From the NCBI RefSeq assembly GCF_000949635.1, contig NZ_BAFN01000001.1, positions 124,001-188,000 of the forward strand: a DNA stretch of 64,000 nt, given 5' to 3'. Both the position numbers and the translations under genes were made by a program. Below are positions 5,861-62,127 of this stretch, piece after piece. Numbering within the stretch: position 1 is the stretch's first letter; every line of letters begins with the position of its first letter. The notes beneath the pieces were generated by a model that ran no database searches, was not told where the DNA came from, and saw only the letters and a program-made list of their open reading frames with translations. Source of the stretch: Candidatus Brocadia sinica JPN1. Lineage in GTDB: Bacteria > Planctomycetota > Brocadiia > Brocadiales > Brocadiaceae.

Positions 5861-7341
5861 TGAATGAATATCGGGACAGAAAGTTTGCTTCGAATTACGG
5901 AAAGGAACTCTCTGTGATCGTAGACAGGAAAAAGGCCATTTTCAGTACATGGTATGAGCGATTCCCCCGGTCATGCTCTCCGGAACCCGGCAAACACGGA
6001 ACTTTTAAGGATTGCGAGGCCATCCTTCCGGAGATAGCGAAAATGGGCTTTGATGTCTTTTACCTCCCACCCATTCATCCGATAGGAAGGACGAACCGGA
6101 AAGGAAAGAATAATTCACCGGTATCCGGTCAAAATGATGTAGGAAGCCCCTGGGCAATAGGATCTCAGGAAGGCGGGCATAAATCCATCCATCCTCACCT
6201 GGGAACGCTGGAGGATTTTGAAAGACTCATAAACAAGACCAGAGATTATGACATAGAAATCGCTCTGGACTTGGCATTCCAGTGTTCGCCTGACCATCCG
6301 TATGTTGCAGAGCATCCTGAGTGGTTCAAATGGCGTCCTGACGGTTCTGTCCAGTATGCTGAAAATCCACCGAAGAAATACGAAGATGCACTTCCCTTCA
6401 ATTTTGAAACAGAACAGTGGCGACAACTGTGGGAGGAATTAAAGAGTGTCGTGGTCTTCTGGGTTGAAAGAGGCGTCCGCATATTCAGGGTTGATAACCC
6501 ACACACGAAGCCGTTTTCTTTCTGGGAGTGGCTGATAAATGAAGTAAAGAGTAAATACCCTGATGTTCTCTTTCTTTCAGAGGCCTTCACAAGACCAAAG
6601 GTTATGTACTATCTTGCAAAACTCGGATTCACGCAATCCTACACCTATTTCACCTGGAGGAATACAAAGCGGGAATTTATCGAATACATTACCGAACTTG
6701 TCCAGACCAACGTGAGGGAATATTTCAGGCCTAACTTCTGGCCCAATACACCCGACATCCTTCCAGAACACCTCCAGTATGGAGGCAGACCTGCATTTAT
6801 GATCAGACTTATTCTCGCCGCAACCTTATCATCCAGCTATGGTATCTTTGGTCCTGACTTTGAACTTTGTGTTAGCGAGGCACTTCCCGGAAAGGAAGAG
6901 TATCTCAATTCAGAAAAATATGAGGTAAAACACTGTGATTGGGATAGGCCAGGAAATCTCAAAGATTTTATTGCTCGGGTGAACCGGGTAAGAAAGGAAA
7001 ACCCTGCCCTTCAGACCACAGGGAATGTGCAATTCTACGAGGCAGACAATGGATATCTTGTCGTTTATGGAAAGACAACGGAAGATTTTTCTAACATACT
7101 CCTTGTTGTGGTAAATCTTGATCCCTATCACAGCCAGTCGGGATGGATAAGAATCCCTATTAACAAATTTGGAATAGATGCAGACCAGCCATACCTCGTT
7201 CATGATCTGTTAAGCGATGGCAAATATATCTGGCATGGAGAAAATAATTATGTGGAATTTAAACCACATAATCTGCCTGCCCATATTTTCAAGGTAAGGA
7301 AGAAATTGAAAAGAGAAACTGATTTTGATTATTTCCTGTAA
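5860..7341 (+). CDS. glgE: GlgE alpha-1,4-glucan:maltose-1-phosphate maltosyltransferase, catalytic part
   Basis: GlgE (EC 2.4.99.16, GH13_3) adds maltosyl units from maltose-1-phosphate to alpha-1,4-glucan. This 493-residue frame holds the barrel, with WYERFPRS, YLPPIHPIGRTNRKGKNN and HPEWFKWRPDGSVQYAENPP, all hallmarks of GlgE. The predicted nucleophile is D212 of this frame (FRVDNPHTKP) and the acid/base is E241 (LFLSEAFTRP). The start at 5860 is only where the downstream frame has its first ATG; the true protein probably begins at 5357 (see the preceding entry). TreS-maltokinase, which makes the maltose-1-phosphate donor, follows 12 bases later. Confidence 0.92.
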   Translation: MNEYRDRKFASNYGKELSVIVDRKKAIFSTWYERFPRSCSPEPGKHGTFKDCEAILPEIAKMGFDVFYLPPIHPIGRTNRKGKNNSPVSGQNDVGSPWAIGSQEGGHKSIHPHLGTLEDFERLINKTRDYDIEIALDLAFQCSPDHPYVAEHPEWFKWRPDGSVQYAENPPKKYEDALPFNFETEQWRQLWEELKSVVVFWVERGVRIFRVDNPHTKPFSFWEWLINEVKSKYPDVLFLSEAFTRPKVMYYLAKLGFTQSYTYFTWRNTKREFIEYITELVQTNVREYFRPNFWPNTPDILPEHLQYGGRPAFMIRLILAATLSSSYGIFGPDFELCVSEALPGKEEYLNSEKYEVKHCDWDRPGNLKDFIARVNRVRKENPALQTTGNVQFYEADNGYLVVYGKTTEDFSNILLVVVNLDPYHSQSGWIRIPINKFGIDADQPYLVHDLLSDGKYIWHGENNYVEFKPHNLPAHIFKVRKKLKRETDFDYFL

Positions 7342-34765: not shown

Positions 34766-35314
34766 TTAAGGATATCCGGGATGCTCCCTCTTCGTAGGTT
34801 CGGGATATTCCTTTTCAATTAGGATAGCCTTCTTCTCCCAGAGGTCTTTCTTCTTATTATAGTTCCAGGTATAATTCTCTTTGCCATTCATCTTATGAAC
34901 GGCAATGCTCGCTTTATCAACCCTCAAATTATCCTTATTGGTCCCCTGCACAAAGAAGTCCAGGTCGTACGTATTACCGTCTTTCCCTTTAAAGTCTGCA
35001 CAGACAAAATATTCATCCGTCTTTGTTGGAGAGAGCTTGTCCTTATGCACCTTGTCAAGCATCAACCCTAAATATTTTTCTGTGTTCTTATCAAGATACT
35101 TGAAAACACCCTCTGTGGAATTTTTCCGAATGTATTCTTCAGCAAATTTTGCCACATCCTCCTTGGTTATACGCGGTTTTTCCTCCTCTTTGTACGGTAT
35201 CACTTGTCCCGGATGCTCTCTTTCGGAAAAAGCAGATGAAGCGCTCAATCCTAACATAAACAACAAGACTGTAACTGTTGCCAAACTTTTTCTCGGAATT
35301 AGGAATAAATTCAT
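34766..35314 (-). CDS. Secreted protein, paralogue of the next gene upstream (182 aa)
   Basis: I do not recognise the family. After a signal peptide (residues about 1-30, ending SASSAFS) comes a domain shared with the neighbour at 35548: KFAEEYIRKNSTEGVFKYLDKNTEKYLGLMLDKVHKDKLSPTKTDEYFVCADFKGKDGNTYDLDFFVQG. The tail ends in TKREHPGYP. The ATG at 35314 is supported by AAAGGAGAC eight bases upstream; the longer frame to 35485 has no such site. It is the second gene after the riboswitch and may be cotranscribed. Confidence 0.85.
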   Translation of the reverse strand: MNLFLIPRKSLATVTVLLFMLGLSASSAFSEREHPGQVIPYKEEEKPRITKEDVAKFAEEYIRKNSTEGVFKYLDKNTEKYLGLMLDKVHKDKLSPTKTDEYFVCADFKGKDGNTYDLDFFVQGTNKDNLRVDKASIAVHKMNGKENYTWNYNKKKDLWEKKAILIEKEYPEPTKREHPGYP

Positions 35315-35547
35315 AATTGGGTCTCCTTTATCAAAAGGTAAACGAATCCGTAGCAGCAGTAGCTTGAAAAGGTAAAACTGCCAATTGCCATATAAAGTCA
35401 CTGGCATGAAAGATACAAAAGTGACATCAATTTCTCCATTGAACCACCCCCTTTCCTGAAAATATTGCTCTGGGAAAAGCCACAAAGATACTGATTCAGC
35501 ATGTTTTCAGTCAGCATCAACAGCTCTACTGGTGATACTGACTATTA

Positions 35548-36117
35548 TTAAGGGTAGTCAGGCTTCGGATGTTCAGGATGCTCCGGTCGTTTCTTTTCGG
35601 TTTTGACGGTCTTCTTCTCCCAGATACCTTTCTTTTCATTGTAGTTCCATGAGTAATTCTCTTTGCCATTTACCTTGTGGATGGCAATGCCCTTTTTATC
35701 AATATTTAAATAACTCTTGCTTTTCCCCTGCACAAAAAAGTCAAGGTCGTATGTATGACCGTCCCTCCCCTTGAAATCGGCACAGATAAAATATTCATCC
35801 TTCTTTATCTGCGAGAGCCGTTCACGATGCACCTTGTCAAACTTTAACTCCAGATCTTTTTTCGTTTTTTTATCATAGTGTCTGAAGATGCCATCCCTGG
35901 AATTTTTCTGAATGTATTCCTCGGCAAATTTCGCCACATCATCGAGGGTTACCATCGAATTTTCTTTTTCTTTGAGTCTTACCATTTGCTCAGGATGATC
36001 TGCAGATGCAGTATATGAAGTGGTTGTTTCCAAAGAAATTAATGCGATTCCAAGATACATCATCAATACGGCCGCTGCGGGGGTCAAGCCTTTCTTCAGT
36101 ATTCTGAATAAGTACAT
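35548..36117 (-). CDS. Secreted protein under a GEMM riboswitch (189 aa)
   Basis: This is a paralogue of the gene at 34766, sharing the EEYIQKNS, DEYFICADFKGRDGHTYDLDFFVQG and NGKENYSWNYNEKKGIWEKK blocks. The N-terminus is a signal peptide (about residues 1-35). The C-terminus is Lys/Pro/His-rich (EHPEHPKPDYP). It has one Cys in the CADFKG motif. The start at 36117 follows GAAAGGAG. Directly upstream is a GEMM-I aptamer and its terminator, so expression is expected to respond to c-di-GMP or a related dinucleotide. Function is unknown; such riboswitches often control surface, matrix or electron-transfer proteins. Confidence 0.88.
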   Translation of the reverse strand: MYLFRILKKGLTPAAAVLMMYLGIALISLETTTSYTASADHPEQMVRLKEKENSMVTLDDVAKFAEEYIQKNSRDGIFRHYDKKTKKDLELKFDKVHRERLSQIKKDEYFICADFKGRDGHTYDLDFFVQGKSKSYLNIDKKGIAIHKVNGKENYSWNYNEKKGIWEKKTVKTEKKRPEHPEHPKPDYP

Positions 36118-36140
36118 TGTTAGTTCTCCTTTCATGAAAA

Positions 36141-36192
36141 CAAAAAAGCCTTACTGCAAAGATATTCATTCAAACATCTTCGGCAGTAAGGC
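36141..36192 (-). terminator. Rho-independent terminator overlapping the GEMM aptamer
   Basis: On the minus strand a perfect 10-bp stem (GCCTTACTGC with GCAGTAAGGC) is followed by six T residues. Its 5' arm lies inside the last conserved segment of the GEMM aptamer, so folding of the aptamer and of the terminator should exclude each other. This predicts that ligand binding lets transcription continue (an ON switch). Confidence 0.85.
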
Positions 36193-36276
36193 TATCTTTC
36201 ATAAAGCCGTTTAAACGGCTCGACAAGACCCTTTACTTTGCGTCCCCTGATCGCCCAGGGTTTGCCTTTGTCGTAA
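36182..36276 (-). promoter_or_regulatory. GEMM-I (cyclic di-GMP type) riboswitch aptamer
   Basis: Read on the minus strand, the region has the GEMM-I core in order: GGCAAACC, a CCTGG/TCAGG stem capped by a GCGA tetraloop (GNRA), then GGGACGCAAAG, AGGGTCT, a GCCGTTTAAACGGC second-stem hairpin, and GATAGCC before the terminator. These are the most conserved parts of the class-I c-di-GMP riboswitch and its cGAMP-binding variants. I could not decide the ligand from the J1/2 base alone. It precedes the secreted-protein gene by about 65 bases. Confidence 0.9.
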
Positions 36277-36505
36277 TGTTTTTCATCATCAAAATTTTAC
36301 TATCTATTATCTATTATCTATAGTATTTTTATGCCTTTTATTTCAAGAAAAAATAAAATATTTACCAGTCATGAAGCTGGCAAAACTCAAACAGGCAAAG
36401 TAGTTTGACACCTCTAGCATATTATGATATTATCAAAAAACGCATTTTCTAGTTAAGAGATTTGTAATTACTTTAATAATTCATAAAAAATGGAGAGAAT
36501 TTACA

Positions 36506-37614: not shown

Positions 37615-39225
37615 CTATTTTGTCAGAGAAACTTTCTCTATACGTCCTTCCCTGCGCAACCTGGCTGCTTCTGATTGAATCTTGGTAAACTCCATCATCA
37701 TAGGAGCCTGACCCCACCACCAGGAAACATCCTGTTGGACGTGGGCAGTTCCTTTGTAACCTTGGAGTTTATACCAGAACCATAATCTGTTGTACATATT
37801 CTCAATATTTGATGGATTATCCTGCTGTTGCAAGAACATGCCATAAACACCCAGGATGGGTCCCACTACGGGGAACTTACCCTTCAAGGTCTTGAAGGCG
37901 TTATAAATCGGCTCACCAAGGAATGCCGGACTAAGCTGCTTCTCAATCCCATCACTTAACGGGTAAGGATCCCTGTCTGCAGCACTGGGATGGAGGTATC
38001 CATCTGCAATCAAGTCCTCAACAACCTTCTGTGCCTGATCTGCCAGCTTGTGCGCCTGGAACATAAATTCATCCAGTGATTTCAAATAGGTGTCGGCAAA
38101 CCGATCACTGTGGCACTTCGCACAAACCTCTAGCCAATATGACCTCTTGGCAATATTTTCTTCCGAGTAGATATCAATCTTATCGGCAATAATCTTGATT
38201 CCATAAGGATAATCCTTCAACGAAGAAGTATATTCCAGGTTCTTTGGTGGTACCGTACCCATACGCCAAATACCCTTCATTACCGGATTGTGAATAAACC
38301 GGCCATGCTTTTCGTACATGTGGCAGAATTGGCATGTTGGGGTGCGATAGTCCTTGCCTGGCCTTACCTCAGACAATGGTCTTGTGAAATCAAAATGTTC
38401 TTCCTCCTTGTGGTAAATCACACCATGCTTCGATTCGCCATACGATTCAGCATCCGGATGGTCAGGTCCCATATGACAGGTAATACAGGCCTCTGGCTGT
38501 CTTCCTTCTGCGGCGCTGAACTTATGTCTGGTATGACACACATCGCATTTTTCCGCGCCTGAATGGCATAAATCACACCCATGCTGTCCGTATAAGTAGC
38601 CCCTTCGTGCAGCCTCGGCATACCAAGGCACTATGGTATTTGCCTCCCACGACTGGATGTGATTGGGACGGCCCACCTCTCTCTCGCGTAAGAAATCATC
38701 AAACTGAGGTCTGTGACATTCACCGCATACCTCTCCGGTTGGCATCCTGATCTGTTTCTTTTTTGTATCGGCATGGCAATCGAAACAGTGTACCTCATCT
38801 AAAATCCTGCCCGTGCGCTTCTCGATTTCAGCGGTTTTGCTCGATAGATAAGCGCTGCTTTTGGGATTTTTATGCCCGGAACTTCTCCAGTCTCTTACAA
38901 CGCCAGGGGTCGCTTCCTCATGGCATGTTACACACAAATCCCTTCTTTCTTTTTCAATAAAGATCGAATGGTCAAGATTTTTCATGGGTTCATAGTGTCT
39001 GTTGGGTTGCCAGTACATATCAAGCATCTGTGGCTTGAAATAGTCTTTAAACGGCCCTGAACCCTCGCTAAGCCCAACGTTATCTTTATAAACCGCCCTG
39101 TACCAATCAGGCGTTCCCTCATACAAATCTGGCGGTGTTTCCTTCTTGGGTGGTTGTTCAGCTGCCCACACCGCAGAAGTAAACAGCATCGCAGATAAAC
39201 ACAAGCCTATTCCTAGTTTTTTCAT
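37615..39225 (-). CDS. Octaheme hydroxylamine-oxidoreductase-like cytochrome c
   Basis: A signal peptide (about residues 1-22, ending AVWA) is followed by eight CxxCH motifs: CVTCH, CFDCH, CGECH, CDLCH, CDVCH, CITCH, CQFCH and CAKCH. The size (536 aa) and the C-terminal helical region with WFWYKLQGYKGTAH fit the HAO family of anammox bacteria. Members either oxidise hydroxylamine/hydrazine (Tyr-crosslinked heme) or lack the crosslink and reduce nitrite to NO. From the adjacent diheme gene I favour the nitrite-reducing HAOr type, but cannot prove it. The ATG at 39225 is preferred to 39240 because GGAGGTG precedes it. Confidence 0.93.
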   Translation of the reverse strand: MKKLGIGLCLSAMLFTSAVWAAEQPPKKETPPDLYEGTPDWYRAVYKDNVGLSEGSGPFKDYFKPQMLDMYWQPNRHYEPMKNLDHSIFIEKERRDLCVTCHEEATPGVVRDWRSSGHKNPKSSAYLSSKTAEIEKRTGRILDEVHCFDCHADTKKKQIRMPTGEVCGECHRPQFDDFLREREVGRPNHIQSWEANTIVPWYAEAARRGYLYGQHGCDLCHSGAEKCDVCHTRHKFSAAEGRQPEACITCHMGPDHPDAESYGESKHGVIYHKEEEHFDFTRPLSEVRPGKDYRTPTCQFCHMYEKHGRFIHNPVMKGIWRMGTVPPKNLEYTSSLKDYPYGIKIIADKIDIYSEENIAKRSYWLEVCAKCHSDRFADTYLKSLDEFMFQAHKLADQAQKVVEDLIADGYLHPSAADRDPYPLSDGIEKQLSPAFLGEPIYNAFKTLKGKFPVVGPILGVYGMFLQQQDNPSNIENMYNRLWFWYKLQGYKGTAHVQQDVSWWWGQAPMMMEFTKIQSEAARLRREGRIEKVSLTK

Positions 39226-39263
39226 TTCATTCACCTCCATAGGTATTAGAACATATTCAGATG

Positions 39264-62039: not shown

Positions 62040-62127
62040 AAATATCTCTCTAACGTGTCACTTGATTCAGGCAAAAAAACGGTTTAAACGGTTTAAACCG
62101 TTCAAACGGCTTAATCTGAAAATTCAA

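Follow-up and report, generated by a model that had tools for sequence, protein, structure and literature searches.

A predicted class I c-di-GMP riboswitch with a terminator that begins inside the aptamer, one of about 58 in the genome of Candidatus Brocadia sinica

A 64,000-nucleotide stretch of the Candidatus Brocadia sinica genome, referred to here as the window, contains a gene leader that was originally predicted to be a GEMM-I riboswitch sharing a strand with its terminator. The locus raises the question of which ligand this RNA senses, in which direction it would switch, and how widely such leaders are used in the genome. Our analysis indicates that the window leader is very probably a class I c-di-GMP riboswitch that acts as a transcriptional ON switch, and one of about 58 in the genome. 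Its features and the neighboring genes are listed in Table 1.

Table 1. Coordinates of the riboswitch, the terminator and the adjacent genes, numbered from the first letter of the window
Feature	Position	Strand	Remarks
Outer P1, 5' strand AACAU	36276..36280	-	Pairs with AUGUU 36177..36173; read from sequence
GEMM-I aptamer, P1 core to P1 core	36178..36275	-	RF03167 64.7 bits; RF01051 63.2 bits
G20 equivalent, ligand contact	36266	-	Invariant in 47/47 copies
P2 hairpin	36245..36260	-	GCGA tetraloop 36254..36251
A47 equivalent, ligand contact	36239	-	G in RF03167 consensus
P3 variable tip with GCCGUUUAAACGGC palindrome	36197..36226	-	
C92 equivalent, ligand contact	36183	-	
Intrinsic terminator hairpin, 20 bp	36147..36193	-	-28.7 kcal/mol
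Terminator 5' arm	36193..36173	-	Common to P3/P1; AGCCUUACUGCCGAAGAU...
Terminator 3' arm	36166..36147	-	
Terminator U tract	36142..36147	-	Read from sequence
Shine-Dalgarno sequence AAAGGAG	36126..36132	-	Read from sequence
Controlled gene, 189 aa, N-terminal hydrophobic segment	35548..36117	-	
Second gene, paralog 54% identical to the controlled protein	34766..35485	-	

The Rfam search (cmscan) located a GEMM-I (c-di-GMP-I) aptamer at 36275..36178 on the minus strand; the original prediction had been silent on the strand. RF03167 (c-di-GMP-I-GGC) is the best-scoring model, with 64.7 bits (E 5.2e-13) compared to a gathering score of 59, and the match spans model positions 1-80, its full length. 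The parent family RF01051 (c-di-GMP-I, GEMM-I) gives 63.2 bits at the same site, where the cut-off is 35. The covariance-model check proposed with the prediction therefore returns a significant match. No other match was reported by cmscan in the whole window. The predicted GCGA tetraloop is present as well and caps P2. The element had been placed correctly, but its extent is larger than the predicted end at 36276, since P1 has outer pairs as far as 36280. The riboswitch class is a known one, to which the window element adds a new member.

The aptamer helices are preserved among the copies in this genome. Across the aligned copies 90.2% of the aptamer pairs are formed, the score is above those of all slid controls, and 10 aptamer pairs have changes on both sides, compared to 2.6 in shuffles. 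Compensatory changes at the conserved pairs of the three helices P1, P2 and P3 are what is expected of RF01051. These changes are located mainly in P2, in which six of six pairs have both-side changes, and in the outer P1, and P3 is mostly invariant. The outer P1 is paired in about 75% of cells with compensatory changes in part, in copies that are paralogous. Part of P3 is missing from the unconstrained best fold of the aptamer region. The window RNA shares with RF01051 the core motifs, the P1/P2/P3 layout, the GNRA tetraloop of P2 and the residues A18, G20, A47 and C92. Unlike that family, it has an extra outer P1 helix and a long variable P3 tip, and in this genome it is amplified to 57-58 copies.

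The original prediction that the 5' arm of the terminator overlaps the final aptamer segment is borne out. This arm is the 3' strand of the aptamer helices P3 and P1, and the terminator has a z score of -9.35 compared to dinucleotide shuffles, none of which (0/200) folds as well. In the 47 copies 95.6% of the terminator cells are paired; the covariation taken alone is weak because the arms hardly vary. Since the strand is shared, the terminator fold and the aptamer fold are mutually exclusive. A terminator 5' arm within the aptamer is characteristic of terminator-type ON riboswitches: an aptamer locked by its ligand excludes the terminator, and read-through is therefore predicted. The best fold of the full leader without ligand includes the terminator, which is the expected OFF state. 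Of the ligand-dependent antitermination claimed originally, the mutually exclusive terminator and antiterminator are supported, whereas the ON direction, which follows from the modeled folds, stays a prediction. A clear sigma-70 promoter was not found directly upstream of the window leader.

We propose that c-di-GMP would lock P1, P2 and P3 while the leader is transcribed. The strand at 36193..36173 would then be unavailable as the terminator 5' arm, and RNA polymerase would continue into the gene at 36117..35548. With no ligand the terminator would form, and the transcript would end near 36142.

The controlled gene is preceded by a Shine-Dalgarno sequence in front of the ATG at 36117, and the likely product is therefore the 189-residue protein. 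The first ATG, at 36135, is a less likely start. The protein looks exported from its N-terminal residues. No Pfam or NCBIfam match was found for it, and its predicted structure has a pLDDT of 66.5 (two-sequence alignment) with a best PDB match at E 0.24. The listed start of the second gene is probably too far upstream. Five genomes of the genus have the riboswitch 131-153 nt ahead of the gene. In the closest orthologs of the same genus (G006, G008, G011 and G012) the GEMM-I core lies 139-153 nt upstream, and in a genome of another genus (G021) an RF03167 match at 6501-6605 is found just ahead of the ortholog at 6793. The Jettenia homologs of the gene are without an upstream riboswitch. On the other side of the leader, 37615-39240 (minus strand) encodes a multihaem cytochrome with an octahaem hydroxylamine-oxidoreductase-like domain, which adjoins cytochrome c genes.

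The window leader belongs to an extensive set. The Brocadia genome (4.08 Mb) contains 58 RF03167 matches and 57 RF01051 matches, 55 of the latter above the RF01051 cut-off. Genomes of the same genus contain 22-58 GEMM-I copies and other genomes of the family 1-28. Most other sampled planctomycetes have 0-2, and counts up to 11 are found in a few from the same order; this phylum-wide count stopped at 14 per genome and is applied to genomes with few copies. In the Desulfuromonadia, the class of Geobacter, the maximum is 24 copies among the 38 genomes sampled; Geobacter uraniireducens has about 30. The 58 copies are the largest count met among the sampled genomes, in a search over part of the bacteria. 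Terminator and aptamer overlap in 55 of the 58 leaders, usually by about 21 nt, with the terminator beginning inside the aptamer, and L117 has a similar architecture with an incomplete match. Two copies, L061 (G000:C1:4031779) and L065 (10558), belong to a second type, in which P3 is short and no terminator overlaps the aptamer; this type is probably a translational platform. All copies sampled from G018 and G019 are of this type, and it is also present in G022, G024 and G004. Both L061 and L065 precede genes for very large proteins with lectin domains.

At its tip P3 varies freely. The inserts there can be grouped into GTTTAAAC palindromes, the class to which the window copy belongs; TTTTCCTGC hairpins; a small hairpin, UACAnGGAnGUA; and, in Jettenia, genome-specific inverted repeats, with AGAGACGCAT..ATGCGTCTCT in G016 and G017 (L288, L289, L296 and L362-L365). 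The GTTTAAAC palindromes are also found free-standing, with six in the window compared to 1.4 expected (for example at 62082-62098), and they occur in the P3 inserts of about 20 GEMM-I copies, as if genome repeats landed in P3 or were captured there.

The small P3 hairpin contains the motif ACAnGGAnGU, which equals the CsrA SELEX consensus RUACARGGAUGU, where ACA and GGA are fully conserved (PMC7652899). The leaders may therefore be composite, with CsrA sites in P3 adding a second layer of control; the window copy, which has no such site, would respond to c-di-GMP alone. CsrA could block translation of the read-through RNA, or it could be titrated by terminated leaders. We regard this reading as possible, though somewhat improbable. 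A precedent for it, and for this hypothesis only, is the E. coli moaA leader, in which the aptamer of a Moco riboswitch is also bound by CsrA (PMC7652899). That leader has a different aptamer at a single locus and translational control, whereas the Brocadia CsrA sites are candidates.

Several observations are consistent with CsrA binding. The genome has 18 exact TACARGGANGTA sites, compared to four for the reversed control, and 13 of the 18 are located by coordinates within GEMM-I P3 inserts. The relaxed motif is present in 20 of 51 inserts of this genome compared to 0.14 in shuffles, and its columns are conserved while the flanks are not. About 40% of the sampled Brocadia copies carry ACAnGGAnGU. 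The relaxed motif is found in 33 of 81 inserts from four Brocadia genomes and in 2 of 28 from Jettenia (p = 8e-4, Fisher test); the copies are paralogs, and their common ancestry inflates both these counts and the p-value. In the genus, csrA was found in each of the 11 genomes, and one copy adjoins fliW here; it was found in none of three Jettenia genomes. Among GEMM-I copies of other bacteria the motif is found in 1 of 125, in Jettenia and within a different hairpin.

Other observations weigh against it. Shared descent of the paralogs affects every one of the counts, and more than half of the copies, the window copy included, are without the motif. Genome G022 contains csrA and has the motif in 0 of 10 copies, whereas in Jettenia, which lacks csrA, the copy L299 carries a good motif. 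Covariation in the stem of the GGA hairpin was rejected as support, being good only on rows chosen for pairing; on unselected rows one outer pair reaches p = 0.04, and the outer stem is hardly above chance. These leaders may be under dual control by c-di-GMP and CsrA.

The large number of copies could alternatively be due to repeat-like spread, such that many copies no longer switch and the terminator is a constitutive terminator or an attenuator. The aptamer and terminator are indeed nearly identical at dozens of loci, exact duplicates are present at some, the P3 tips contain palindromic repeats, and a few copies (L113, L114 and L116) are degenerate. However, the residues contacting the ligand are invariant while pairs in P2 and P1 change in a compensatory manner, and the position in front of orthologs is kept between species. 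Repeat-like spread with loss of switching is therefore very improbable, and a set of c-di-GMP switches is the reading we prefer.

Residues at the ligand contacts indicate which dinucleotide would be sensed. They are numbered as in the Vibrio cholerae Vc2 RNA, with the equivalences assigned by hand. The equivalents of A18, G20, A47 and C92 are invariant in 47 of 47 aligned copies of this genome, and the G20, A47 and C92 found in all of them are the contacts expected of RF01051. This is the ordinary c-di-GMP signature, and c-di-GMP is the ligand we predict. RF03167, which shares AAAGGCAAACC and details of P3 with the window RNA, has a consensus G at model position 37, equivalent to Vc2 position 47, whereas the window RNA and all 47 aligned copies have A. 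We take the 'GGC' in c-di-GMP-I-GGC to denote positions 20, 47 and 92; because position 47 is A, this sub-label of Rfam was rejected for the window RNA and is probably not apt. GEMM-I aptamers with A at position 20 prefer cGAMP, and the GEMM-Ib riboswitches of Geobacter, which carry this A, have the same fold and many copies per genome. That the window aptamer senses 3',3'-cGAMP in the same way is nevertheless highly unlikely: all 47 copies retain G at position 20 and have the canonical A47 and C92.

What would c-di-GMP control through these leaders? We defined the targets as the first genes after the leaders, assigned approximately by the longest nearby reading frame. They include laminin-G/lectin, RCC1, SBBP/DUF7948, PKD, beta-helix and RHS proteins; peptidoglycan amidases, an ABC-2 exporter and a UTP-glucose-1-phosphate uridylyltransferase; and two sigma-54 activators, a caspase-domain protein, and radical SAM and PqqD proteins. 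Directly behind L071 is an operon for an extracellular contractile injection system (G000:C1:1910326-1927185; L402:1327-18186) with sheath, gp19-type tube, T4 baseplate, Pvc16_N, AAA, eCIS_core, CIS_tube and Baseplate_J components. A PAS-GGDEF diguanylate cyclase (L116:1685-5086) is located behind a degenerate aptamer and a strong terminator (leader at G000:C1:2104850), which suggests past or altered feedback on c-di-GMP synthesis.

The original prediction also described signalling to secreted proteins. This fits the window gene, whose product has an N-terminal hydrophobic segment, and the 17 GGDEF matches in the genome, but as a description of the regulon it is too narrow. A crude test for a hydrophobic N-terminus, with uncertain start codons, showed no excess of exported products among the targets (27 of 50 downstream ORFs compared to 20 of 42 genes of the window), and several of the targets are plainly cytoplasmic. 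To call the element 'direct evidence' of cyclic dinucleotide signalling was an overstatement, ligand binding here being a prediction.

The element itself is a textbook riboswitch. Its interest lies outside the predicted interval, in how large the regulon is and what it contains, and in the possible CsrA sites. A search of the literature, with most subscription journals outside it, found no earlier report of a regulon of about 58 leaders. An extended model appears doubtful to us: in about 40% of the 58 or so leaders P3 would have acquired a CsrA-binding hairpin, the leader would integrate both inputs, and terminated leaders would titrate CsrA. If the CsrA motif is functional, these leaders would be the first riboswitch family known to us that is present in many copies and has a protein site built in.

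Hydrazine synthase alpha has two equal-score matches in the genome, at G000:C1:674830-675144 and 2801105-2801419; the organism is therefore an anammox bacterium, and the pair suggests that this locus is duplicated. Granules and biofilms are the forms in which anammox bacteria live, and the control of their aggregation is both a biological and an applied question. Acting together, the roughly 58 leaders would let c-di-GMP switch surface, injection and regulatory genes throughout the genome. The unusually large set of copies suggests that c-di-GMP controls much of the surface and aggregation machinery. The predicted ON switches provide a list of candidate targets for anammox aggregation, among them the extracellular contractile injection system, adhesin-like and lectin-like proteins, polysaccharide genes and sigma-54 regulators.
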